Source of the DNA: Devosia elaeis
GTDB taxonomy: Bacteria; Pseudomonadota; Alphaproteobacteria; Rhizobiales; Devosiaceae
Length of the DNA stretch: 64,000 bases
Reading direction: 5' to 3'
Assembly: GCF_001650025.1 (NCBI RefSeq)
Contig: NZ_LVVY01000068.1
Span: forward strand, 1-64,000
The notes beneath the pieces are model-generated. The model saw only the letters and a list, made by a program, of their open reading frames with translations. It was not told where the DNA came from and made no database searches. Below are positions 28,291-47,015 of this stretch, one piece after another. The position numbers and the translations under genes are program-made. Positions within the stretch are counted from its first letter, which is position 1; the number at the start of each line of letters is the position of its first letter.

Positions 28291-29073
28291 ATGGATGATG
28301 AATTCTCTAAGCGCGATGCACTTGCCGGTATTTCGCTAGGCGCTGGCTCCGGCCGGACCTATGCGCTCGACGTCTTCGACGTCGCGCCCGCGGAAAAGTA
28401 TCCCAGCGGGCTGCCCCTGCAGATGAGAGGGGGCGTTCCGCTGCTGCCGCCGCTGTCGCCGGCACGGCGGCTCAATCTCGTGGCCAAGCGCGGGCTCGAC
28501 CTGGTGCTCTGCGTCCTGGCGCTCGTCGCGCTGGCGCCGCTGCTGCTGGGCGTGGCGGCGCTGATCAAGCTGACCAGCCCGGGTCCGGTGCTCTTCGTGC
28601 AATATCGTCCCGGCTATGGTGGCGTGCGCTTTCCCCTGCTCAAATTCCGCACCATGCATGCCGATCGCGGCGATATGTCGGGCGTGGCGCAGACGCAGGC
28701 CAATGATCCGCGCGTGACCCGGATCGGGGCCTTCCTGCGCCGGACCAGCATCGATGAATTGCCGCAATTGCTCAATGTCCTGGCCGGACATATGTCGCTG
28801 GTGGGGCCGCGTCCGCATCCGGCCAATATGCGGGCGGCGGGCAAGCTCTACCAGGACCTGGTGCCCTATTACGACCTGCGGCTGGTGATGCGGCCGGGTC
28901 TGTCCGGCTGGGCGCAGGCCAATGGCTATCGCGGGCCGACGATCGACGCGCGATCGGCGCGGGCGCGGATCGAGCACGACATGGCCTATATCCAGAATTT
29001 CTCGCTCGCTCTCGATCTGCGGATCATCCTGATCACCCTGAGAAAGGAATTTCTCGGCGGCACCGGATTCTGA
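28291..29073 (+). CDS. Initiating sugar transferase (ExoY type)
   Basis: A 260-residue polyprenyl-phosphate hexose-1-phosphate transferase that loads the first sugar on undecaprenyl phosphate. One membrane segment (about 69-93) follows a basic KRGLD, then the catalytic cytoplasmic part has KFRTM at 118-122, DELPQL at 155-160 and GPRP at 172-175, all hallmarks of the family. The N-terminal ~60 residues are unlike the family core and appear disordered. It lies 73 bases before uxs. Sugar preference (galactose or glucose) cannot be read. Confidence 0.92.
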   Translation: MDDEFSKRDALAGISLGAGSGRTYALDVFDVAPAEKYPSGLPLQMRGGVPLLPPLSPARRLNLVAKRGLDLVLCVLALVALAPLLLGVAALIKLTSPGPVLFVQYRPGYGGVRFPLLKFRTMHADRGDMSGVAQTQANDPRVTRIGAFLRRTSIDELPQLLNVLAGHMSLVGPRPHPANMRAAGKLYQDLVPYYDLRLVMRPGLSGWAQANGYRGPTIDARSARARIEHDMAYIQNFSLALDLRIILITLRKEFLGGTGF

Positions 29074-30103: not shown

Positions 30104-31049
30104 GCATCCCGGATATTGTCTTCCCGCTGGAGGGGCAGCGGGTCTGGGTCGCCGGGCATCGCGGCATGGTGGGCAGCGCGGTGGTGCGGCGGCTGGCTGG
30201 GGAAGGATGCGTGCTGGTGGGGCTCGACGAACCCCGCGCCGATCTGCGCCGGCAGGATGCGGTCGAGGCGCTGATCGGGCGGCTGCGCCCGGATGCCATC
30301 GTCATGGCGGCAGCCAAGGTCGGCGGCATTCTGGCAACGAGACCTATCCGGCCGAATTTCTCTATGACAACCTGATGATCGAGGCCAATGTCATCGGCGC
30401 GGCGCATGCTCATGACGTCAAGCGCCTGTTGTTTCTCGGTTCGAGCTGCATCTATCCCAAAATGGCGCCGCAGCCGATCGAGGAGACGGCTTTGCTGACT
30501 GGGCCGCTGGAGCCGACCAACGAATATTATGCCATCGCCAAGATCGCCGGCATCAAGCTGGCCCAGGCCTATCGCCGCCAATACGGCCGGGACTATATTT
30601 CGGCGATGCCGACCAATCTCTATGGACCCGGCGACAATTTCGACCTGCAATCGAGCCATGTCCTGCCGGCGCTGATCCGCAAGGCGCATGAAGCGAAAAT
30701 GCGGGGCGAGGGCGAGCTGGTTGTCTGGGGAACGGGCAGCCCTCGACGCGAATTCCTGCATGCGGACGATTGCGCCGATGCGCTGGTTTTCCTGCTCAAG
30801 ACCTATTCGGACGAGGCGCATGTCAATGTCGGATCGGGGCAGGACCTGACCATTCTGGAACTGACCGAAATGGTCTGCGCGATCGTGGGGTTCGAGGGCC
30901 GCATCGTGCACGATCTCGGCAAGGCCGACGGCACGTCGCGAAAGCTGATGTCGGCGGAGCGGCTGCGGGCCATGGGCTGGGCGCCGCGGATCGGGCTGCG
31001 CGACGGCATCGCCCAGACCTATCGCTGGTTTCTCGATCATGTCGCCTGA
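30100..31049 (+). pseudogene. fcl: GDP-L-fucose synthase, frameshifted
   Basis: Two frames together make one complete Fcl. The first (30100-30375) gives the N-terminal NADP domain, from GHRGMVGSAVVRRL to AAAKVGGILA; from 30336 on, the family sequence continues in the next frame as NETYPAEFLYDN, then SSCIYP, with Y/K in NEYYAIAKIAGIK, to the stop at 31049. The expected LANETYPAEF needs one more base near 30335 (GCCAAC read as GCAAC). There is no slippery heptamer, so programmed shifting is unlikely; a true mutation and a sequencing error are both possible. If real, GDP-fucose synthesis from Gmd would be blocked here. Confidence 0.88.
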
Positions 31050-31833
31050 GGCGCATGAGGCACTGGCCGCCGCGCCATCCCACGACATGCTGGGCATGCG
31101 CCTCGATGCCATCGCGCCGGGGCGCTATATTGCGGAGATCGTGGAGGCCGGCGGACGCGGGGAGGGATTCTATTGCTGCATCGCCAATGTGCATATGTGC
31201 GTGCTGGCGCATGACGATCCCACGTTCCGGACCATCGTCAATGGCGCGCGCTATGTGATCCCCGACAGCACGATCCTGCAAAGGGCGCGCGCCCTGCGCC
31301 ATGGCGTGTCGGCCCCGCCGACGCTGCGCGGCGCCGACATGATGCTTGAAATTGCCCGTATGGCGGCGCGAAAGGGCGTCGCCGTCGGCCTTGTCGGCGG
31401 GCGCGACGAGGCGGCCCTGGCCGGGCTGATCGAACGGATGGTGGCGCAGATTCCGGGCCTTTCCATCGTCTATGCCTTTTCGCCGCCCTTTGCCGGCATG
31501 GATGAAGCGGCGGATGCGGCCATGGTCGCCGACATAAAAGCGGCGCGCCCCGGCGTGCTGTTTGTCGGCCTGGGATGCCCCAAGCAGGAGCGCTGGATGG
31601 CGGCGCATGTGGACCGGATTCCCGCCGCCATGCTGGGCGTGGGCGCCGCCTTCGACTTCAATGCCGGCGTGGTGCGGACCTCGCCGCAATGGGTGCACAA
31701 AGCCGGGCTGGAATGGGCCTATCGGCTCATGCGCGAACCCAGGCGCCTGTGGCGGCGCTATCTCACCACGTCGCCGCGCTTCCTGTGGCTCCTGTCGCGC
31801 GATGCGCTGGGCAGGCGGGGACGGGCGGGGTGA
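31039..31833 (+). CDS. WecG/TagA/CpsF family glycosyltransferase
   Basis: A 264-residue GT26 enzyme that adds the second sugar to a lipid-linked intermediate (for example N-acetylmannosamine or glucuronate). It has the IANVHM start near 48, D76 in VIPDST (catalytic region), GLGCPKQERW at 177-186 and GVGAAFDF at 200-207, all hallmarks. It overlaps fcl by 11 bases and ends in GTGA overlap with the flippase gene. The C-terminal ~25 residues are basic, as needed for membrane attachment. Confidence 0.9.
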   Translation: MSPEAHEALAAAPSHDMLGMRLDAIAPGRYIAEIVEAGGRGEGFYCCIANVHMCVLAHDDPTFRTIVNGARYVIPDSTILQRARALRHGVSAPPTLRGADMMLEIARMAARKGVAVGLVGGRDEAALAGLIERMVAQIPGLSIVYAFSPPFAGMDEAADAAMVADIKAARPGVLFVGLGCPKQERWMAAHVDRIPAAMLGVGAAFDFNAGVVRTSPQWVHKAGLEWAYRLMREPRRLWRRYLTTSPRFLWLLSRDALGRRGRAG

Positions 31834-33116
31834 ACGTGCAGGGCATATCGCAGCGGCCGGACGGGTGGATGGACAGGGTCGCGCGGCGCGGCGGCCCGAA
31901 ATTCTGGACCGTGCTGGACCAGGCCCTGGTGAGCGGCAGCAATTTCGTGCTGACGCTGCTGCTGTTCCGGCTGCTGGGCATCGACAATTTCGGGGTCTAT
32001 GCGCTGTTCTTCGTGGTGCTTACCATCGCGCAAACCATCCATCACTCCGCGGTGAGCACGCCGATGATGAGCATACTCCCGGGGCCGGAAGCGGCAGCGC
32101 ATGAGCGGGAAATCGCGCATTTCCTGGTCTTTCACCTCATCGTCAACCTGCCGCTGTCGCTGGTCGCGACCGCCGCGCTGCGCATCGCGGCAGGGCCGGC
32201 GATCGGTCCGGTGGAGGCCATCGCAACATTCCTGGCGCTGGCGCTGTTCCAGTTCCATGATTTCGTACGGCGCTATCTGTTCTCCGCCGAGAAGGCGTTT
32301 TACGGCTTTCTCGCGGATGGATTGCGCTATCTGTCGCTCCTCGTTGCGGTCGGCCTGGCTCTGGCGCTGCTGCCAGGCGACCAGCGGGTGGCCCTGGCGC
32401 TGTGGCTGACGGCGGCGGCCTCGCTCCTCTCCGTGCTGCTCATGGGCGGGATGGTGCTGCGCGCCGCCGATATCGGCGCGCCGGGCTTGCGGGCGGCGCT
32501 GGCCCGCTATGCGCGCCTGTCCTCCTGGCTGGGCTTCAGCGGCGCGCTGCAGGTGTTGAGCAGCAGCATATTCTATCTGGTGGCGGGCGGATTGCTGACG
32601 CCGGCGGCAGCGGGCATATTGCGGGCATCGCAGACGGCGACCAGCATTCTGCCCGTCATGCAGCAGGGGCTGGAAACCTACGTGCCCATGCGGGCGGCGC
32701 AACATTTCCGCGCGGCCGGACGAGATGGCCTGGCCGGGTTCCTGCGGCAGAGTTTCCTCCAGGCCTTCGCCTTCGCGCTGATCGTCGGCCTGCTCCTGGT
32801 CATCTTCGCCGATCCGCTGATGGCATTGCTGTTTCCGGGGGACCTGGCCGGCACGAACCTCGTCTTCTGGTTCGTGATCATCGCACTGGTCGAGGTGCTG
32901 GTGAGCTATATCCGTTTCTATTTCCGCAGCGTGCTGGATGTGGCGCCGGTCTTCTGGGCCAGCGCCGCCTCTGCGCTGGTGGCCATGGGGCTGGTCTATC
33001 CGCTGGTGTCGCAGATGGGGCTGGTCGGCGCGGCTCTGGGGATCCTAGCGGCGCGCATCGCCTTGCTGTCTGTGCTGGTCCTGTTTCTGGTCCGGCGTTT
33101 GCGGAGGCCGGCATGA
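31830..33116 (+). CDS. Polysaccharide flippase (Wzx-like, MOP superfamily)
   Basis: A 428-residue inner-membrane protein with about 12 helices, of the oligosaccharide-flippase type that moves lipid-linked repeat units to the periplasm. Sequence is poorly conserved within the family, so the call rests on the helix pattern, the N-terminal QALVSGSNFVLTLLLFRLLG segment and its location. The start is a GTG at 31830 that overlaps the WecG stop (GTGA). A later start at the ATG at 31869 is possible. The 3' end overlaps the next gene by ATGA. Confidence 0.82.
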   Translation: MNVQGISQRPDGWMDRVARRGGPKFWTVLDQALVSGSNFVLTLLLFRLLGIDNFGVYALFFVVLTIAQTIHHSAVSTPMMSILPGPEAAAHEREIAHFLVFHLIVNLPLSLVATAALRIAAGPAIGPVEAIATFLALALFQFHDFVRRYLFSAEKAFYGFLADGLRYLSLLVAVGLALALLPGDQRVALALWLTAAASLLSVLLMGGMVLRAADIGAPGLRAALARYARLSSWLGFSGALQVLSSSIFYLVAGGLLTPAAAGILRASQTATSILPVMQQGLETYVPMRAAQHFRAAGRDGLAGFLRQSFLQAFAFALIVGLLLVIFADPLMALLFPGDLAGTNLVFWFVIIALVEVLVSYIRFYFRSVLDVAPVFWASAASALVAMGLVYPLVSQMGLVGAALGILAARIALLSVLVLFLVRRLRRPA

Positions 33117-36764: not shown

Positions 36765-38081
36765 GTGCATTTTCCACAAGCCGGAAACGACATCGATGCC
36801 GTGAGATCGCGGTTCCGGCCGTTTTCACCTTCAGCCTGGCGGGCGGCCTTTTTGGGCACGGGAATGCTGGGCGTGGCGCTGATCGCCGTGGCCACAAGCG
36901 GCAAGCTTTTCGAAACCCGGGAATCCTCGGAAGTTCTGATGAGCGCGGCAACAAATTCCACCATATTGCGTCTGCTCGCATTATTGGTCGCCGCCAGCAT
37001 TCTGGCTCCTCGCATCACTCGAATTTCCATTCCACGATCGCCGTATTTCAAAGCGTTTGGGCTATTCGCAATTATTTGTCTCGCTTCGACCTTTTGGTCG
37101 TCGTCGGCGCTTGCAACGATCGGCAAAGCCTCGGAATTGCTTGTGGGCTGGTTGATCGTCTGTTTTCTGTCGCGCGGAACTGATGGACGCGCTCGGCTGA
37201 TAGCGGCGTTGCACCTCGTTTTTTACTATATGGCAGCGCAAGTGGTCGTCGTGACCTTATTGTACGTATTGGGTGTTCCCGGATTTTCGGAGCGCGGCGC
37301 CGGCGGCATCACCGACCTGCTGGGCTCCAGAAGCGTGGCGCCGTTCATATCCGCCAATTCCCTGGGTTATTATTCCGCAGCGCTTATTCTCCTCGTGTTC
37401 GGGACGTTTTTGTCCAGCCGACTAAGATTGAGAACAGCATTCTTTCTGCTTTGCGTTTTTTCAATCACTCTGGTTAGCTCCGGAAGCAGGACGTCCCTTG
37501 TCATGGCGGTGCTTGGCATCCTGATTTTGTGGCTGAATGGGAAAAGGATGGCGATACTAGCGCCATTCGCTTTCTTGCTCCTGCTGGTATTGTCCGCGAA
37601 TTTCCATGCTGTGCTGGAATTTTTGCAAGGTGACGTCTCTGATAGCGTCTTTTTTACTTTGAGTGGCCGGACGGTGCTCTGGCAGGCGGCGATCGATGCC
37701 TGGCTTTTGAACCCCGTCATCGGCTACGGCTATGGGGTGGGAAGCCGGACGGCGTTCACGCTCGTTGATCTGCATGGTTTTGCGGCAGATATCTCTTCGG
37801 TCCATAACGGGTTTTTGGAAGTATTGCTTGGCGTCGGCGTGGTCGGTTTTGTACCCTGGGTAATCTCGGTACTTGGTCTGATTGCGGTCTTCCTGAAGTC
37901 CCGGCGCGATCCTGAAATTTTCAGTTATACAGGAGGCATCTGCATTGTCGTGTTTGCGACCACGGTGATGTCCTTGGGGGCGGGGGGCGCCATGTCCGAA
38001 CTGGTGCTGCTAATGCTGATCGCCTTCGCTCTCCATGCCAAAGTTAAAAATACTAATCACGACAGTGAACGCCGGATGTGA
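36765..38081 (+). CDS. O-antigen ligase/polymerase family membrane protein (copy 1)
   Basis: A 438-residue polytopic inner-membrane protein of the Wzy/WaaL family with about 11 helices and a large periplasmic loop. The hallmark near SGRTVLWQAAIDAWLLNPVI and the GVGVVGFVPW segment with SVHNGFLE are those of the PF04932 family. Starts at a GTG with GAGG ahead. Visibly lower GC than the neighbouring genes, a common sign of late acquisition for polymerase genes. A second family member is at 44640; which is polymerase and which ligase is not decided by sequence. Confidence 0.82.
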   Translation: MHFPQAGNDIDAVRSRFRPFSPSAWRAAFLGTGMLGVALIAVATSGKLFETRESSEVLMSAATNSTILRLLALLVAASILAPRITRISIPRSPYFKAFGLFAIICLASTFWSSSALATIGKASELLVGWLIVCFLSRGTDGRARLIAALHLVFYYMAAQVVVVTLLYVLGVPGFSERGAGGITDLLGSRSVAPFISANSLGYYSAALILLVFGTFLSSRLRLRTAFFLLCVFSITLVSSGSRTSLVMAVLGILILWLNGKRMAILAPFAFLLLLVLSANFHAVLEFLQGDVSDSVFFTLSGRTVLWQAAIDAWLLNPVIGYGYGVGSRTAFTLVDLHGFAADISSVHNGFLEVLLGVGVVGFVPWVISVLGLIAVFLKSRRDPEIFSYTGGICIVVFATTVMSLGAGGAMSELVLLMLIAFALHAKVKNTNHDSERRM

Positions 38082-38089
38082 CGCCCACA

Positions 38090-39274
38090 ATGCGCATACT
38101 TGTCCTGCATAACCTGTACCAGCAGCGCGGCGGGGAGGACGCGGTCGTCGAGGCGGAAACGGCTCTTCTCCGTGCCGGCGGACATGATGTGCGGATCGAG
38201 AAAGTTCACAACGATCAGATTGTCGGGTTCGCCAGCAAGGCAAAGGCGTTTGCCAATGCCGCCTATGATGCAGGGCGATATTGCTGGATGCAGGATATCT
38301 TGCAGGACTATCCCGCCGACATCGTCCACATACACAATTTTTTCCCTCTGCTGACGCCGGCTGTCCATGCTGCTTCGACCGATATGGGGGTGCCGGTTGT
38401 GCAGAGCCTGCATAATTTCCGGATAACATGTGCCAACGCCATGCTGCTGCGCGACGGCCAAATCTGCGAAAAATGCGTTGGAGGAAACAAACTCTGGGGT
38501 GTTTATCACCGCTGCTATCGCGGCTCGCTGCCGGGCTCGCTTGCGGTCGTGAACATGCAAATTCGAGCTCAGCGGGAATCTAGCTGGTTTCGCCATGTGC
38601 ATCGCTTCATTGCGCTGACCGAGTTCGGAAAAAACAAGTTCGTCCGTGCAGGTCTTCCGGCCGACCGCATTGTCGTGAAGCCGAATTTCCTGTCGATGGG
38701 TGCGCCTGTGCCCCGGGAGCCGAGATCGGGAGGCCTGTTTGTGGGGCGGCTGTCCGAGGAAAAGGGCGCGCACCTTCTGATCGAAGCCTGGCGCCATCTT
38801 CCCGACGTCGGCCTTACCATCGCTGGCGATGGCCCCGAACGGAAGCGCCTCGAGGCCACCGCGCCGGCCAATATCCGGTTCCTGGGGCAGGTGGACCCTG
38901 CCGAAGTGGCACGCGAAATGGCCAGAGCAGCATTTCTTGTCATACCGTCAATTTGCTACGAGGGCTTCCCGATGACGGTCGTAGAGGCGTTCTCTCGTGA
39001 ATTGCCCATTCTGGCGTCGCGCATAGGAGCGCTGGCGGAAATTGTCACGTCCGGAGCGAATGGGGATTTGTTCGAGCCGGGGCGCCCGGATAGCATTGTC
39101 GAAGCGGTGCGGCGCTTCCTGTCCGAGGCGTCCTATGGTCCGCGCCTCGGCGCAGGCGCTCTGAGAAGCTATTTGTCGCTTTATACCAGCGAGCGGAATC
39201 TGAAACAGTTAGAGACAATCTACGCCGAGGCCATCGAGCAGCGGGCCGCCGATATGGCGGCCAACAACGTTTAG
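38090..39274 (+). CDS. Glycosyltransferase family 4 (second)
   Basis: A 394-residue GT-B transferase. It starts MRILVLHNLYQQRGGEDAVV, has the donor-site GLFVGRLSEEKGAHLLIEAW and an E-x7-E-like ICYEGFPMTVVEAFSRELP. It may also start at the GTG at 38078 that overlaps the previous stop. Lower GC than the operon upstream, like its neighbour. It is the last plus-strand gene of the locus; the next genes are convergent. Confidence 0.92.
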   Translation: MRILVLHNLYQQRGGEDAVVEAETALLRAGGHDVRIEKVHNDQIVGFASKAKAFANAAYDAGRYCWMQDILQDYPADIVHIHNFFPLLTPAVHAASTDMGVPVVQSLHNFRITCANAMLLRDGQICEKCVGGNKLWGVYHRCYRGSLPGSLAVVNMQIRAQRESSWFRHVHRFIALTEFGKNKFVRAGLPADRIVVKPNFLSMGAPVPREPRSGGLFVGRLSEEKGAHLLIEAWRHLPDVGLTIAGDGPERKRLEATAPANIRFLGQVDPAEVAREMARAAFLVIPSICYEGFPMTVVEAFSRELPILASRIGALAEIVTSGANGDLFEPGRPDSIVEAVRRFLSEASYGPRLGAGALRSYLSLYTSERNLKQLETIYAEAIEQRAADMAANNV

Positions 39275-40200
39275 GCGGCGATGCACCAAGCCTGCTCGAG
39301 CCAGTAGGGGGAGCCGGCTGGCAAGGCCCATGCGCCCGCCGTCGTTTGTTCGGTGGCTGGGCCGTCAGCCGGCACTGTTCTGAGCAAATGAGCCGCCCCG
39401 GGAAGCAACAGTGTCACCGCGTCCGCTACGCGGTGGAGCGATGTGCCGGAAGTCAGGACGGTATCCGCGAAACGTTCGTCCGATAGATCGGATGGGCCAA
39501 CAACAATGGTAAAGTCATAGAATTGCCCGGTCGTTACCACCAGCCTTAGGGAGGACGTTGCCCGGGCCGCGCTGGGCGATTGTAGGGCCCGCTGGACGCT
39601 GGTCCGCGTGAGCGCGCTTGAGGCAGGAAGTGGCACATAGCTCGCGTCAAGCAAGGTGTGGCTCGCATTGCGCTCGAACAGACCCAGCCTGGAAACGTCG
39701 GGCAAGGTGCCGGCGATGACGGCCAGGAAGACGCCGGCGTGCCAGGTTTGGCCCAGGGCGGCGCTGGGGCCGGCGTTGTATTCGACGGGGTTGATGGCGA
39801 TTTCGCCATTGGCCAGGGCGGTGCCGGAGAAGCGCATGGTGACGGTGGGCAGGCCGTTGATGAGCTGGGTGGAGAGGACCTGGCGGCTGATGCCGGCGGG
39901 GGCCGAGGAGCTCATCAGTTCGGGCCGGCCGGCATTGGGGGCGTAATTGGTGGCGGCGGGCTGGATGAAGAGGCCGCGATTGGTGATGGCGGGAACATTG
40001 GGCGCGAAGCTGTGCCAATGGCCCGAGCGGTCCTGGGCCAGGCGCGGCGAGGGGCTGGCGCAGGAGAGCACGGACGCGCGCGCCACCGGCGCGCCGTCCT
40101 TCATGTAGCGGTCATTGCGGAAATCGAAGGCCATGACCGCATTGGCCGGCCACCAGGCCGGCGTCTTGCGGGCCGAGAGGCCGAGGGACAGCCTGGTCAT
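39271..40200 (-). CDS. GTA head-spike fibre-like protein (GhsB/phage spike-fibre type)
   Basis: A 309-residue protein with the FDFRNDRYMKDG start, then SFAPNVPAITNRGLFIQPAATNYAPN, a block found in phage and gene-transfer-agent head-spike or tail-fibre proteins. The remainder is beta-rich and ends WLEQAWCIAA. It lies immediately downstream (ATGA overlap) of the spike-base-like gene, the same order as ghsA-ghsB in Rhodobacter capsulatus. No other phage gene is in the window. Homology to RcGTA is my recognition of the pattern, not a search. Confidence 0.7.
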   Translation of the reverse strand: MTRLSLGLSARKTPAWWPANAVMAFDFRNDRYMKDGAPVARASVLSCASPSPRLAQDRSGHWHSFAPNVPAITNRGLFIQPAATNYAPNAGRPELMSSSAPAGISRQVLSTQLINGLPTVTMRFSGTALANGEIAINPVEYNAGPSAALGQTWHAGVFLAVIAGTLPDVSRLGLFERNASHTLLDASYVPLPASSALTRTSVQRALQSPSAARATSSLRLVVTTGQFYDFTIVVGPSDLSDERFADTVLTSGTSLHRVADAVTLLLPGAAHLLRTVPADGPATEQTTAGAWALPAGSPYWLEQAWCIAA

Positions 40201-40463
40201 CAGACGAGCCCCACAATGTCGGTGGCGCTGGTGCCGGTGGCGCGGACATGGGTGGCGCGCACGGGCAGGGCGGTGCCGGCAGGGAGATTGGCGAAGGTGA
40301 TCTCGGTGCCGGAGGCGAGCACCAGGCGGAGGGCGCCGAAGCCGCCCACATAGATGGCCCTTGTGGTTTCCGGCAAAGCGTTGGTGTCGTGCGGGACGAT
40401 GGAAAAGGCATGGACGGCGGGGCCCTCCATGCTGGGTTCGCGATTGGAATAGCGGTCGGCCAT
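40200..40463 (-). CDS. GTA head-spike base-like protein (Rcc01079/GhsA family)
   Basis: An 87-residue protein of the spike-base family. The blocks VPHDTNALPETTRAIYVGGFG and TFANLPAGTALPVRATHVRATGTSATDIV are characteristic of the RCAP_rcc01079 family, which forms the base of the head spikes of gene transfer agents. It starts 78 bases after gmd on the same strand behind a GAGAGGA site. It is the last but one gene before the plus-strand GT4 gene. In Rhodobacter these spikes bind capsule, so the location within a capsule-type locus is striking. Confidence 0.8.
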   Translation of the reverse strand: MADRYSNREPSMEGPAVHAFSIVPHDTNALPETTRAIYVGGFGALRLVLASGTEITFANLPAGTALPVRATHVRATGTSATDIVGLV

Positions 40464-40526
40464 GTCTGGTCCTCTCGGGTTGATGGACGCAAAGTATGGC
40501 CTGCGCCGTTCCGAGCGGGGATAAGT

Positions 40527-40540
40527 GGGCCGGCCGGCCC
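40527..40540. repeat. Perfect 14-base GC palindrome after gmd
   Basis: GGGCCGGCCGGCCC begins one base after the gmd stop on the minus strand. It could fold as a small hairpin, but there is no T-run, so termination is uncertain and readthrough into the spike genes is possible. Confidence 0.4.
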
Positions 40541-40541
40541 T

Positions 40542-41609
40542 TCAGGCGGGGCCGTTGGCGGCGGCCTGCCGGAGCAGGAGCAAATCCGCCTCGACCATTT
40601 CGCGGGCGAGGTCGCGCACCGAAATTTCGTGCGTCCAGCCCAGCTTCTGCCGGGCTTTTCCGGCATCGCCGAGCAATATGTCCACCTCGGTGGGGCGGAA
40701 ATAGCGCGGATCGACCTCGACCAGCACCCGGCCATTATCGGCGTCGATGCCTTTTTCATCCACGCCGCTGCCCTGCCATTGCAGGTTTATGCCGATATCC
40801 TCGAAGGCCCATTGTACGAAATTGCGCACCGGGGTGGTGGTGCCGGTGGCCAGCACGTAATCGTCGGGCTCGTCCTGCTGGAGCATCAGCCACATGCCGC
40901 GCACATATTCGCGCGCATGGCCCCAATCGCGCCGCGCATCGAGATTGCCCAGATAGAGCTTGTCCTGGCGGCCCAGGCTGATGGCCGCGACGGCGCGGGT
41001 GATCTTGCGGGTAACGAAGGTTTCCCCGCGCAGCGGGCTTTCGTGATTGAAGAGGATGCCATTGCTGGCATGCAGGCCGTAGGCCTCGCGGTAATTCACC
41101 ACGATCCAATAGGCATAGAGCTTGGCCACGGCATAGGGCGAGCGGGGATAAAAGGGTGTGGTCTCGCGCTGCGGGGTTTCCTGCACCAGGCCGTAAAGCT
41201 CGGAGGTGGAGGCCTGATAGAAGCGGGATTTGTTCTCGAGGCCGAGGATGCGGATGGCCTCGAGCAGGCGCAATGTGCCCAGGCCATCGGCATTGGCGGT
41301 ATATTCGGGGGTCTCGAAACTCACCTGGACGTGGCTCTGGGCGGCGAGGTTGTAAATCTCGTCCGGCTGGGTCTCCTGCATGATGCGGATCAGATTGGTG
41401 GAATCCGTCATGTCGCCAAAATGCAGGGTGAAGCGGGGATCGAGCTCGTGCGGATCCTGGTAGATATCCTCGATGCGGCCGGTATTGAACGAGGAGGAGC
41501 GGCGCTTGACGCCATGCACGACATAGCCCTTGTCCAGCAGCAGATGGGCGAGATAGGCGCCATCCTGCCCGGTAATGCCGGTGATCAGCGCGGTCTTGCT
41601 CTGGGTCAT
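40542..41609 (-). CDS. gmd: GDP-mannose 4,6-dehydratase
   Basis: A 355-residue SDR enzyme converting GDP-mannose to GDP-4-keto-6-deoxymannose. It has the [14 protein letters not shown] site (11-20), the catalytic STSE region at 135-138 and Y160/K164 in SPYAVAK. Its product is the substrate of Fcl, which here is frameshifted, or of other reductases. Length and motifs are normal. It is 60 bases downstream of the BY-kinase stop on the same strand. Confidence 0.96.
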
Positions 41610-41668: not shown

Positions 41669-43855
41669 TCAGGCTTCCTGGTAATATCCGCTATATTTGC
41701 GCAGGTAGGACCGTTCGGACCCGGCCTGCTGGTTGAGGACGGCGAGCAGGCGCGCATCGGGGCGCATCGCCTTGCCCAGCGCGTTGAGCACCTTGCCGGC
41801 TTCCTGTTGGCCGGTATGGGCCCAGCGCACGCAGAGCACGGCCACATCGGCATGCGGGGCGATGTATAGACCGTCGATCACGGGGCCGATGGGCGGAGTA
41901 TCGACCACGACGACGTCGAAGGTCTTGCGCGCCGCATCGAGCAGATCGACGAAGCGACTATTGGCCAGCAGGTGATCGGTGGGCGTGCCGCTGCGGCGGG
42001 CGCCGAAGATGACGGTGCAGCCGCTGAGCGGGTCGGTGGAGGCGAGCGCGGCCAGATTGGCGTCCGAGGTCGGCTGGCTGAGGAAATCGTTGAGGCCGGT
42101 CTGCGGCTCGAAATTCATATGGCGATGCACGCTGGGCTTGCGCAGGTCGCCATCGATCAGCAGCGTCCGGTGTCCGGACAGGGCATAGGATCGCGCCAGG
42201 GCGAGGGCGATCGTGGTCTTGCCTTCATTGGGCAGGGTGGAGGTCATCATCACCACCATGCCGCGGGTGGCCTCGCCACGGGTCGAGGTCCTGTTGGTCT
42301 GCTGTTCGGTGGCGGCGCGGATGCGGCGAATGGATTCGGCGAACATCGAGAGGGGCGCATTGACCACCAGATCGGCGAGGCTTTGCCCATCCACGGACGG
42401 GCGCGCCAAAGGCACGGTGGCGGCGACCGGAATCTTGAGCACGTTTTCGAGCTGCTCTTCGGTGGTGAAGCCGCCGATGAGGTTTTCGTAGAGGAAGGCA
42501 AGGCCGATCCCCAGGCCGATGGAGGCCAGGGCTGCGAGGCCGATGATCAGCATGCGATTGGGAAAGGACGGCGCGCGCGGGGTCAGCGCCACCGAGACGA
42601 CGCGGCTATCGGCGATCTGCAGGGTCGCCTGGGCGTCGAGGTCCTGAACGCGGGCCAGGACGGTCTGATATTGCGCGCGGGCCAGCTCGGCATTCTGCTG
42701 CAATTCGTACAGCTGGGCCAGGACGTCGGGCGGCAGCGAGCTGCCGAGCACCTGCTGGCGCAGGCGTTGGCGCATCGCGTCCTCTTCTTCCTGCGCCTGG
42801 GCCACCTGGCTCTGCAATTGCCCGATCTGTTCCCCGGCGGTGGAGCGCATCTCGGCCTCGATGCGCTGTAATTCGGCCCGAAGATCGATCGTGGTGGGGG
42901 ATTCGGCGGTGCCCGCCAGGCGGTTGGCCAGGCTCTGGCGCTGTTGCTCCAGCGCCGAAAGGGCGTCGGATTCGAGCGTGGCGACCAGGTCGGCCCAATT
43001 GTTGGCGGTCAGCTCGGCCTGGGCCTGATCGAGGCTCAGGGCAGATTGCTGGCGGGCTTCGGTGAGCTGGCGGATATTGGCCTGCATCGCGGCCAGGTCG
43101 GTGCGGCCGCTATCCTGGATGATGCGGTCCATATTGCCGGAGACGAAACTGTCGAAGGAGCCTTCCGAAGCGACGATCGCGGCACGGGCGTCGTTGACGC
43201 GCGATTGCAGGATATCGCGCGAGGCAAGGACGCTTTCCACCTTCGAGGAAATCTGGTCCTGGATGTAGATATTGGCGGTGGCATTGGCCAGCTCCGCCGC
43301 CTTGGCGGGATCGCGCGAGCGCACCTGCAGGGAAATGAGATAGGTGAGGCCCCGGCGCTGGACCGAGACGGCGCCGGCCAGCTTGGATAGCGACTGGTTG
43401 AGCGCCTCCTCGCCGGTGGGCAGATCGGGCGTGGCCAGGCGCAGAAAGCTCAGGATGCGGTCGGAGAGACCGAGCGAGACGCCGAATTCGTCGTCGGTCA
43501 ACAAGGTCTGGTCCGAGATGACCTTGAGCAGGATATTGTCCGACCGCATGATCTCGACCTCGCTGTCGATGCGCGCGTTTTCGGCCGAGCTGCTCAATAG
43601 GGGGGCGGAGGGGTCCAGCAGGTTCTTGTTGCTGGGATCGACCATGATCAGGGTCGAGGCGGAGTAGATCGGGGTCAGCGAGAAGACGATTATGGTTGCG
43701 CCCAGGACGCCGATGAGAACGGTCAGCGCGATCAGCCTGGCCTGGCGGCGAAGCAGGCGTAAAATGCCGCGCAGATCGATTTCTTCTTCAGGCATTACAG
43801 AATCCCGCTGCGGAAATGGCTGTCTGGTGAAGTTCTCTGCCGGCTCATGCTGCAT
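41669..43855 (-). CDS. Polysaccharide co-polymerase / BY-kinase (Wzz-Wzc type)
   Basis: A 728-residue protein with both parts of a Wzc: an N-terminal Wzz domain (two membrane helices at about 40-62 and 434-456 with a long coiled periplasmic region between) and a C-terminal bacterial tyrosine kinase. The kinase has Walker A with K546 in NEGKTT, Walker A' [11 protein letters not shown] at 565-575 and Walker B VVVVDTPP at 648-655. The C-terminus has a tyrosine cluster (Y717, Y721, Y724, Y725) for autophosphorylation. It controls chain length and export. Starts at 43855, in TAATG overlap with the phosphatase gene; the ATG at 43795 with GGGA ahead is an alternative. Confidence 0.94.
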
Positions 43856-44643
43856 TATGACGGATTATTGACATCAACTCTAAGAAAATCTTGCTTCTGG
43901 TTACCATCAAGACGCAGTGCGGTGAGTATGCCGGTGGCGAAACATCCCGTGTCGATATTGATGTTACCCGCCGCGATCACCGGTTGGGGCGAGGGGGTAT
44001 GGCCATGGACCACCAGGTCCCAGGAATCGTCGGGCAGGGGCGCGAGCGCCTGCCGGTCCCAAAGCAGCACGGTCTCGTCCTGCTCGGCGAGGGTCAGGCC
44101 GGGTTGCGCGGCGGCGTGCACGAACAGGACCGGGCCCACCTGCGCCAGGACCGGCAGATGTTCGAGAAAATCGATGTGATCGCGCGGGACATAGGCGTCG
44201 AGCAGGGCCTGGCGCTCCCGGCGTCCGGCATCGGCATAAAGGCTCGCATCGATGCCATAGGATTGCAGGGTGGCGAGCCCGCCCAGTTCGAGCCAGCCAT
44301 TGTCCCGTCCCGGATTGGCGAGATGGGCGAGCATCATGATCTCATGGTTTCCGGCCAGGCAAATCCTGGTGAAACCCGCCGGCGGCGGCTGCATCAGGGC
44401 GTCGATGACTGGGGCCGATTGCGGGCCCCGGTCGACGTAATCGCCTAACATGACCAGCACTTTCGGCCCTTCGACCCTCCGAGCGTCCGCGATGATCTGT
44501 TGTTGCAGAAGCTGAAACTGCTCGAAGCAGCCATGCACGTCCCCGATGGCGTAGAGCGCAGCGGGCATTTCTGGGATATTGAGCCGAGGCCGGCCATTGG
44601 CCGGGCCGCGCGCGGGACGGGCGAGGCGATCGAGCCAGCTCAT
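43855..44643 (-). CDS. Metallophosphoesterase, PPP-type protein phosphatase
   Basis: A 262-residue PPP-family phosphatase with the three signature blocks GDVHG (34-38), GDYVDRG (67-73) and GNHE (98-101), plus FVHAA and VHGHTPS that complete the two-metal site. Related to ApaH and Ser/Thr phosphatases. It is sandwiched between the BY-kinase gene (overlap 1 base) and an O-antigen-ligase-like gene (overlap 4 bases), so it might reverse phosphorylation of the polysaccharide machinery in place of the usual Wzb-type enzyme. That role is inference. Confidence 0.88.
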   Translation of the reverse strand: MSWLDRLARPARGPANGRPRLNIPEMPAALYAIGDVHGCFEQFQLLQQQIIADARRVEGPKVLVMLGDYVDRGPQSAPVIDALMQPPPAGFTRICLAGNHEIMMLAHLANPGRDNGWLELGGLATLQSYGIDASLYADAGRRERQALLDAYVPRDHIDFLEHLPVLAQVGPVLFVHAAAQPGLTLAEQDETVLLWDRQALAPLPDDSWDLVVHGHTPSPQPVIAAGNINIDTGCFATGILTALRLDGNQKQDFLRVDVNNPS

Positions 44644-46073
44644 GGCTTGCCCTGCCGGATCGGTTGCCAGATCGTGGCGAGGCCGCAGGCCAGGATGGCC
44701 AGGAAGATCAGCGTGTTGGCGGCCACCTCCATGCTGAAATCGGCCAGGGAATGCACCGCGGAGGTTACGGTCACGGCGATGGCGGCGGCCTGTGGCGCGG
44801 TGTCGAGCCGGCTGCGGCTGCCGCGAAAGCGGATGGCGATGGCTACGAAGCCGGCGGCAACCAGCAGGATCGGGATCGATCCGGCGATGATGCCCAGCTC
44901 ACTCCACAGGGCCAGATAGGTGTTGTGCGCGCGGGACCAGACATAATCGGCGCTGACCGGCAATTGATGCACCAGGGGAAAGGCCGCCTCGAAGCTGCCG
45001 CCGCCCCAGCCGGTCCAGGGGCGCAGGGCGATCATGTCGAGCACCTGCGCATAGAGCCCGGTCCGGTCGCTGGCGGCGCCTTCGGTTTGGAGGAGCCGGT
45101 CAAAGAGCAATTCGCCCGAGGTCAGGATCGCATAAAGGCCGGCCAGGGCGAGGGCCGGCACGCCGACAAGGATGGCCGAGCGCAGTCCCTTGCCCTTGCT
45201 CGCCATCATGAAGAGGCCCAGCGTGGCGCCGATGATCGCCGCGACGAGGCCCATGCGCGATTGCGTGGCGAGGATCGCCATGAGCAGGAAAAGTATGCTG
45301 AGCCCATAGAACAGCAGCGCGCCGGCATTGCCGACGATCCGCCCATCATCGGCATGCTGATGGCTGCGTTCCGATATCCGGCCGGCAAATTGCACACTGG
45401 CGATCACCGTGCCCATGGCCAGGAAGGTGGAAAAGGAATTTCGATTGACGAAAGTGCCGGTGGCCATGCCGTGATAGGCCCATTTGTCCATGCCCAGAAC
45501 GGTGTCGCCGCTATGCAGGGCGATCATGCCGTAGAGAGCATAGGCCATCACGATGGCGAGCAGGCCATCGAGCATGAGTCGCCGCCTTCTGCTGTTGGCG
45601 AGCACCTGGATGGCCAGGAACACGAAAAGCGCATAGGCAAGCTGCCGGGTCAGCATCAGCCAGGTCATCCCGGGCGCGACCGATGCCGTATCCAGGACGA
45701 TGCTGCCCGCCGGCAGGTCCAGTGTGCGATACCAGCCGAACCAGGCGCCGAAGGGAAGCACCTGCAGCAGCAGGGCGACGGCGACCAGGCCCATGGCGAG
45801 CGCCGGCCATTTCAGTCTGGCAATGCCGACGCGCAGAGGCTCGCCGCGCCAGGCCAGCAGCAGGACATAGGACAGGCATGCCAGGCCGATTATCACGGCG
45901 ATGACGCCCCACAGGACCGGGCGATTGCTCGCCAATGGCAGCGGCGCAAGCGCCACGAGCGCCAGGAGCACGAAGAAATAGGCCCGGTTGATGGCATATT
46001 GTCCGCTCCGGGCGCCGGTGTGGCGCGTCCTGCGGCTGGTCTGGTTGAGATTTTCCATGGGCAGACTGGTCAT
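44640..46073 (-). CDS. O-antigen ligase family protein (copy 2)
   Basis: A 477-residue polytopic inner-membrane protein of the same family as 36765, with about 12 helices and a periplasmic loop. It has RTGLYAQVLDMIALRPWTGWGGGSFE and SRAHNTYLALWSELG, the PF04932 pattern with the critical histidine/arginine region. The stop overlaps the phosphatase start by ATGA, and its own start overlaps the upstream gene by one base (TAATG). GC content matches the surroundings, unlike copy 1. Confidence 0.85.
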   Translation of the reverse strand: MTSLPMENLNQTSRRTRHTGARSGQYAINRAYFFVLLALVALAPLPLASNRPVLWGVIAVIIGLACLSYVLLLAWRGEPLRVGIARLKWPALAMGLVAVALLLQVLPFGAWFGWYRTLDLPAGSIVLDTASVAPGMTWLMLTRQLAYALFVFLAIQVLANSRRRRLMLDGLLAIVMAYALYGMIALHSGDTVLGMDKWAYHGMATGTFVNRNSFSTFLAMGTVIASVQFAGRISERSHQHADDGRIVGNAGALLFYGLSILFLLMAILATQSRMGLVAAIIGATLGLFMMASKGKGLRSAILVGVPALALAGLYAILTSGELLFDRLLQTEGAASDRTGLYAQVLDMIALRPWTGWGGGSFEAAFPLVHQLPVSADYVWSRAHNTYLALWSELGIIAGSIPILLVAAGFVAIAIRFRGSRSRLDTAPQAAAIAVTVTSAVHSLADFSMEVAANTLIFLAILACGLATIWQPIRQGKP

Positions 46074-46741
46074 TACGGTCCGGTCCAGGCTCGTTCAAGG
46101 GCGCCGACGAAGCGCTGCTGGGCACGCGGGGGCAGGGATTCGACGATGGCGCCGATGCGGTCCCGCGCTTGCGGATTCTGCGCATAGAGCGCGGCCACGC
46201 GGTCAACGCGCGCAGTTTGGACCAGAAGGCGGATATCGTCTTCGTAGGTGGCGAGCGTTTCGGGTTCGAGGGCCGCGAAATGCTGCTCGGCCAGCATCAG
46301 GCGGTCCTCGGCGATCCAGCCTTCCGCAGGCGCGGTGGCGCGGGACATGCGGATGGCCGCATTGAGCGTCGCCTCATCGCCCTCTTGGATGGCGGCCAGC
46401 GCGACGATGAGCCAGCCGTAACCCGAAGCTGGGGTGGAGTGGAGGATGTTCTCGGCGATCGCCCGGCAGGTCGCCGGGATGCCGGCGCGCACATCGTCTT
46501 CGAGGTAGCGCAGGGGCAGGGCATCGGGATTGGCGAGAACGGTTTCGCAATCGGCGAGGAGCAGGTTCTGCGCCGAAACCGAGAAGGGCGTGGGCGGCGT
46601 TTCCATGGTCCAGTGCGAAACCCGCTGCGCCGGGCTGTCTCCGGAGAGAAGCGGCGCGGATTCGACATTGACGACGAGGACGCCGAGCAGGGCGGTCAGG
46701 ATGCCGGCAATGGCCGGAATAACCAGGTCCGTTCGGTTCAC
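46073..46741 (-). CDS. Membrane-anchored hypothetical protein of the polysaccharide operon
   Basis: A 222-residue protein with one N-terminal membrane helix (about 5-24) and a mostly helical periplasmic domain of about 190 residues, with two cysteines (in LLADCET and PATCRAI). The repeated A/L-rich helices resemble TPR-like folding, but no motif is certain. It is translationally coupled to the O-antigen-ligase-like gene. I start at GTG 46741; a longer TTG frame is not supported. It may be a polymerase accessory protein, by position only. Confidence 0.6.
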   Translation of the reverse strand: MNRTDLVIPAIAGILTALLGVLVVNVESAPLLSGDSPAQRVSHWTMETPPTPFSVSAQNLLLADCETVLANPDALPLRYLEDDVRAGIPATCRAIAENILHSTPASGYGWLIVALAAIQEGDEATLNAAIRMSRATAPAEGWIAEDRLMLAEQHFAALEPETLATYEDDIRLLVQTARVDRVAALYAQNPQARDRIGAIVESLPPRAQQRFVGALERAWTGP

Positions 46742-47015
46742 ATCCGCCCGCCATCTATGGGAAAGGAAGACTGGATTGCAGCCGCGGCGGGGGCAGGGCG
46801 CGAGGGGGTCGGCCGGGGTGAACAAGAGGGCGGATTATGCACGTCGGTCTCCAGCCATAGGTTCACCCTCAACTGTGCCGGTATTGTGTTGATAAGTCGT
46901 TCCGGCGCCGGCAGCTAGTAATCCGGATGGCGTTAGTGTCCGTCATCCGCGATCATTTTCCGAGAGGGATAATGTGTGCTTGCCGCGACGGTTGCAGATC
47001 GCGGCCATCGCGGGG

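Follow-up and report, generated by a model that had tools for sequence, protein, structure and literature searches.

Why would genes for the head spike of a gene transfer agent (GTA) be found among the genes that build a cell's own polysaccharide coat, in a genome in which no GTA capsid gene was found? The question is raised by two adjacent genes of Devosia elaeis, ghsA (40200..40463, minus strand) and ghsB (39271..40200, minus strand), in a window of 64,000 nucleotides, by which we mean the whole stretch of DNA that was analysed. The answer that we favour, with a probability of about three in four, is that they encode a head spike of the type known from the Rhodobacter capsulatus GTA (RcGTA), which lies in the polysaccharide locus of its receptor, would grip the cell's own coat and has been orphaned here by loss of the GTA capsid.

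The first gene encodes a head-spike base protein of 87 aa with a predicted beta fold like the RcGTA jelly roll, and the second a head-spike fibre of 309 aa, in which an N-terminal plug-like peptide is followed by an all-beta body. Both ORFs are intact, overlap by one base and give a single match each in the whole genome. The original prediction placed the pair 78 bases downstream of gmd on the same strand, and this holds: the GDP-mannose 4,6-dehydratase gene (40542..41609, minus strand; Pfam PF16363, E = 8.4e-157) is the immediate upstream neighbour of ghsA across a gap of 78 bp (40464..40541, minus strand), in which no sigma-70-like promoter or intrinsic-terminator-like match was found and the RNA fold was unremarkable (z = -1.2). 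Beyond gmd, Pfam matches identified a Wzc-like chain-length determinant/tyrosine kinase (41669..43855, minus strand; Wzz and GNVR) and a Wzy_C O-antigen ligase/polymerase family protein (44640..46073, minus strand). On the other side, a GT4 glycosyltransferase gene (38078..39274, plus strand) runs convergent with ghsB, their stops sharing a 4-base overlap, and is preceded by a Wzy_C family polymerase/ligase gene (36765..38081, plus strand); farther out on the plus strand are genes for a sugar transferase (28291-29073), an NAD-dependent epimerase (scanned stretch 30360-31049; GDP-fucose synthase-like by sequence reading), a WecG-type glycosyltransferase (31039-31833) and a Polysacc_synt flippase (31860-33116; barely above the cut-off), all again by Pfam. 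Polysaccharide-type families were thus assigned to 9 of the 10 flanking ORFs scanned, and the tenth (46073-46825) was without a Pfam match. The claim that no other GTA genes lie in the window was likewise sustained, as its ORFs gave no match at E 1e-3 to any of 24 ORFs called in an intact Devosia GTA region, a set with some spurious antisense calls, or to 14 GTA/phage proteins, while a second GTA region, used as a positive control, was matched by 19 of the same 24. With these 24 + 14 query proteins, no phage structural genes of a prophage tail or spike module were seen beside the pair, which is, like the RcGTA spike genes, an adjacent pair outside the GTA cluster, the remnant of the latter lying on contigs C91 and C63. 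The position of this Devosia spike gene pair within a surface-polysaccharide locus is therefore confirmed.

The identity of the base protein was established from sequence, profile and predicted fold. GhsA matched Rcc01079 (PDB 6tb9) as a single sequence (phmmer E = 6.8e-9) and as a 23-sequence profile (E = 1.6e-23), matched PHROG 12296 with E = 2.3e-26, and its predicted fold superimposed on 6tb9 with TM values of 0.89/0.92 and an rmsd of 1.3 A, in agreement with the earlier call of a GhsA/Rcc01079-like spike base. The companion call of a GhsB-like fibre was supported by profile only: as a single sequence, GhsB found no Pfam, PHROG or meaningful PDB match and, among phages, only a part-match to Azospirillum phage Cd, whereas an 18-sequence profile that includes it matched Rcc01080 with E = 2.1e-11, collinear over chain residues 44-295. 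In a two-sequence comparison, the window GhsB matched another member of this set with E = 1e-28 and 32% identity. The GhsB model (pLDDT 83.7) resembles phage tail-fibre and other phage structural proteins in BFVD (with E values down to 7.3e-10 and query TM values reaching 0.59 among the matches listed), and against solved structures Foldseek returned low-TM matches only.

PMC7296036 describes how, in RcGTA, the peptide IALGLGLGL of the fibre is held in the base pentamer. Residues 2-10 of GhsB (TRLSLGLSA; 40171..40197, minus strand) are in register with this plug peptide and keep three of its five positions, namely leucines 4, 6 and 8, residues 2 and 10 being T and A. An alternating-hydrophobic motif within the first 22 residues occurs in 36 of 45 fibres (44 from Devosia and one from another family, chosen without three doubtful fibre ORFs and the fibre-less loci) versus 19% of random windows of the same proteins; a looser pattern was matched by 42 of the 45 versus a 26% background, and beyond the Devosia set by 19 of 33 candidate fibre ORFs, a weaker result, several of the 33 being doubtful. 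The bodies of the fibres are diverse: among 51 fibres scanned (the 45 and six others), domain matches at E up to 0.01 comprised 13 Lipase_GDSL_2, 4 CBM_4_9, 2 Laminin_G_3 and 1 SASA, with the window GhsB matching none of these families. By sequence reading, a GDS motif is present in the fibres of three loci (L056, L091 and L094) and an AGQSN motif in that of L059. Some spikes may therefore deacylate the polysaccharide, given the GDSL/SGNH or SASA esterase or lectin-like domains found in part of the fibres.

The separate GTA structural cluster that the original prediction proposed to look for was found as a remnant on C91 and C63; the capsid gene and an intact cluster were absent. The GTA capsid is missing from this genome (G000), whose completeness is 99.99%, and the sole GTA_TIM match in it is partial. 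At the cluster site, terminase residues (aligned 35-156) are followed in a single ORF (L033 16191-18308) by gp15 from residue 614 onwards, the gp15 end being on C63. With no GTA capsid gene and this terminase-gp15 fusion, no functional alphaproteobacterial GTA (capsid plus intact structural cluster) is found and a canonical GTA cannot be built here; the window pair cannot serve one in this genome now and looks like an intact but orphaned part. Two HK97-type capsids (PF05065; L224 on C79 and L225 on C77) are probably those of prophages, and neither gave a phmmer match to the GTA capsid at E up to 10.

Such losses are not confined to this genome. In-frame terminase-gp15 fusions were found in six Devosia genomes (L033 of G000, L063, L064, L065, L148 and L149) in the part of the 75 genomes in which they were sought. 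The junction of terminase residue 156 with gp15 residue 614 is common to this genome, G011, G027, G031 and G076, and G015 joins terminase 156 to gp15 residue 84. Other capsid-less genomes keep most of the terminase with the gp15 end only (G009 and G079) or part of the terminase with the gp15 end (G001); no gp15 turned up in G016 or G017. The five same-junction genomes stand apart in a 60-genome rpoB tree (G015 excluded; support values not given), among capsid-intact relatives, and G009, the sister of G011, is also capsid-less. For the gp15 and terminase parts, the trees largely agree with species affinity (G011 with G005, 86% and 99%; G015 with G010, 89% and 96%), with the oddity that the terminase part of G031 groups with G009. 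The junctions fall within short shared codons (GAR then ATC or CTG), and the deletions span about 14.3 kb (12.7 kb for G015) in G010 coordinates, so that the fusions look like the product of recurrent microhomology deletion. The fused copies did not evolve faster in relative-rate counts (3 versus 6 for G011/G005; 2 versus 5, or 13 versus 16 with another outgroup, for G015/G010). No earlier report of these fusion deletions was found in the open-licence literature searched.

Across the genus, the spike goes with the GTA capsid. Defined by reading of capsid matches as at least 70% identity, full length and no stop, an intact GTA capsid is present in 40 of 54 ghsA-plus versus 6 of 21 ghsA-minus Devosia genomes (p = 5e-4), and in 39 of 50 versus 6 of 18 of the more complete genomes (p = 1e-3), by statistics that ignore phylogeny; counting against our reading are the six ghsA-minus genomes with an intact capsid. 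Values of dN/dS lay between 0.09 and 0.43 among the defined values of 17 overlapping pairs, some with dS near saturation, and in all 16 overlapping pairs that have both genes, one of them near zero, the fibre dN exceeded the base dN. These values suggest genus-wide purifying selection on the spike genes, as distinct from selection specific to the time after GTA loss. A case for selection after GTA loss from G076, G017 and G087 (dN/dS 0.09-0.32) was dropped, as G017 (62% complete) and G087, which holds a gp15 piece, are fragmented drafts. Separately, G016, in which neither GTA capsid nor gp15 was found, and G080, which has the capsid, share 15.2 kb at 99.9% identity (L040/L072), which points to GTA loss in the very recent past or to a mixed assembly. 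We considered that the locus had been transferred from one to the other and dropped the idea, since they also agree at 100% over a 422-bp rpoB fragment, so that the two are near the same strain or G080 is mixed.

The strongest rival, to which we assign somewhat less than an even chance, holds that the pair in this genome is a leftover of the lost GTA and heading for decay. The replacement of the cluster by the terminase-gp15 fusion and the absent capsid agree with it, as do G011, where the same deletion is accompanied by a fibre ORF of 157 aa, and capsid-less G079, where no fibre was matched near ghsA. However, both window ORFs are intact, the capsid-less genomes G001, G015, G016 and G076 keep fibre ORFs of 309-577 aa, and damaged spikes occur in GTA-plus genomes too, G025 having a stop in ghsA and G007 a fibre split over two frames, and no fibre match being found in G012 and G069.

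We then asked how general the polysaccharide address is. ghsA is present in 54 of the 75 Devosia genomes searched, with one match in 53 and two in 1; of these 55 matches, the window and 53 others were read, the additional one of G081 being left out. Two or more ORFs of polysaccharide families were found in 43 of the 48 long loci (12 kb or longer, out of the 53) versus none of 17 control stretches (p = 1.4e-11), or none of the 11 controls in Devosia alone (p = 1.6e-8), the controls being chosen, non-random stretches 0.18-2 Mb away on the same contigs. The profiles behind this count were built partly from the spike loci; when window proteins alone served as queries, the threshold of two hits was reached by 44 of 57 spike loci and by none of 7 controls or 5 GTA loci. 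Among the five exceptions, L036, L039 (with ghsA at the contig end) and L077 had one hit each, and L075 and L095 none, the last being phage-like by ORF reading, with a ghsA detected by PHROG profile only and missed by BLAST. The neighbours themselves vary: in 49 loci (50 less L039), the immediate upstream gene was an epimerase/GDP-mannose dehydratase in 9, Wzz/Wzc in 5, ManC-type in 4 and none of these in over half; the downstream gene, likewise scanned in 49, was GT4 in up to 13 and GT2 in 4. The address is thus conserved and the neighbours are not. Random, unlinked positions of the pair in relatives had been named in advance as grounds for rejecting the prediction, and the linkage stood: it is general in the genus Devosia. 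A same-strand upstream gene lies within 200 bp in 27 of 50 Devosia loci, and co-expression of spike and polysaccharide genes, also anticipated originally, is plausible from this spacing.

The co-location of spike and coat genes is strong; the further proposal of a matched key and lock inherited together was not supported. With rpoB distance removed, fibre similarity did not track locus gene content (partial Mantel r = 0.068, p = 0.12, n = 34, with a coarse measure of gene content), and the base protein gave about the same value (0.064, p = 0.19). The set of 34 leaves out fibre-less loci, loci shorter than 14 kb, fibres longer than 900 aa and genomes without an rpoB sequence, and retains G020, whose fibre is doubtful, and G011, whose fibre is short.

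The linkage recurs outside the genus. In a class-wide sample, at least 9 of 384 further genomes carried ghsA, a lower bound because at most 13 candidates per genome were scored. Judged by profile counts and ORF reading, five of the 10 places belong to polysaccharide loci (2-4 profile hits in each of L117-L120; a single hit together with ORF reading in L121), three are prophage-like (L115, L116 and L122), and two, near a murA-like gene, are neither (L113 and L114). One genome, G107, has two ghsA copies, at L114 and at L115. A named scan yielded 45 ghsA loci, 36 of them outside Devosiaceae and counted without matched controls; with profiles again built partly from the spike loci, 13 had at least two polysaccharide hits, 4 one, 8 phage/GTA hits and 11 neither, with some redundancy (L247 and L113 share one contig, and L243/L244 come from a single genome). 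None of the 45 scored for both polysaccharide and phage/GTA, the absence of phage hits being relative to 14 query proteins, and L260, L265 and L268 are phage-like by ORF reading. Of the 11 with neither, Pfam identifies L240 as a polysaccharide locus, L231 has GT2 and GtrA neighbours, and the single gene scanned in each of L245, L252 and L264 showed no polysaccharide family. In some lineages a GTA-like structural cluster is the alternative address: ghsA directly follows a GTA-like capsid gene in Hephaestia (L248) and Sphingomonas jejuensis (L258), and is placed between the TerL and portal genes in Brevundimonas and two Caulobacteraceae (L263, L266 and L270). Finally, 101 phage records contain GhsA relatives at E up to 1, and a polysaccharide hit was found in 0 of 15 fetched viral loci.

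These surveys bear on a second rival, which we regard as unlikely, namely that polysaccharide loci are recombination hotspots tolerating a phage-derived spike pair, so that the linkage has no functional meaning. Neighbours and gene order that differ between relatives, and a fibre type that does not follow locus content beyond rpoB, are what such hitchhiking would give. Against it stand the 43 of 48 loci of polysaccharide pattern, the near-constant single copy, the low dN/dS, the operon-like spacing in just over half of the Devosia loci and the recurrence outside the genus. That the spikes instead decorate the heads of a resident prophage is improbable. In its favour are the two HK97-type capsids of the genome, the GhsA relatives in phages, and G079, which lacks a GTA capsid and has ghsA together with a prophage-type capsid that shares 46% identity with that of the GTA. 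On the other side, the two capsids here gave no match to the GTA capsid (phmmer, E up to 10), whereas the ghsA-carrying prophage-like region L116 has a GTA-like one (E = 4e-94), and across the genus ghsA goes with the GTA capsid.

Comparison with known systems places the pair closest to RcGTA, whose Rcc01079/Rcc01080 genes lie next to the capsule genes rcc01081-01086 (PMC10218006) and whose head spikes bind the capsule in experiments (PMC7296036, PMC10218006). Shared with it are a homologous base and fibre, adjacent genes, a position away from the GTA cluster and polysaccharide genes beside them; Devosia differs in genus and order, in its polysaccharide genes and in the lack of a GTA capsid here. 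The spike base of phage Carin1 (PDB 8cjz; E = 2.1e-6, TM 0.68) and the PHROG 12296 phage proteins are related to GhsA as well, but are encoded by phages. In Hephaestia, S. jejuensis and Brevundimonas bacteroides (L248, L258 and L263), in contrast to Devosia, the spike gene is inside a structural cluster with GTA-like TerL, portal and capsid, belonging to GTAs or prophages; two gp15-like ORFs scanned from these clusters had Phage-tail_3 in both, Rcc01698_C in one and no GTA_TIM match. Adjacency and co-regulation of spike and capsule genes have already been stated for R. capsulatus (PMC10218006), so the novelty here is the breadth of the linkage; no earlier report of a genus-wide one was found in the open-licence literature searched.

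On the favoured reading of an RcGTA-type spike orphaned in its receptor's locus, and by analogy with RcGTA, five GhsA subunits would form a base on the capsid vertex, into which one GhsB would be plugged through its alternating-leucine N-terminus; the all-beta body of GhsB would then attach to the surface polysaccharide of the cell itself, an initial and reversible hold on kin. Devosia and several further Alphaproteobacteria keep this pair in a variable polysaccharide locus and not in the GTA cluster, often close behind a same-strand gene, so that the adhesin would travel, and probably be transcribed, with the genes of its receptor. Deletion of the GTA capsid genes in this genome would have left the pair intact but orphaned. 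More tentatively, the spike pair may be, in many Alphaproteobacteria, a mobile specificity cassette in the receptor's cluster and not in that of the particle; recombination at the polysaccharide locus would then exchange coat and adhesin together and keep delivery among kin, and the cassette would outlive repeated, nearly site-specific GTA deletions.

GTA loss, pseudogenization and the idea of cheaters have been discussed in PMC10883770, the main text of which does not use the word spike, and collapsed GTA clusters beside intact spikes bear on that idea. The field has yet to explain why GTAs deliver DNA mostly to kin; were the adhesin gene a resident of the variable coat locus throughout a genus and in other orders, natural locus variants and gene removals would make GTA kin recognition testable.
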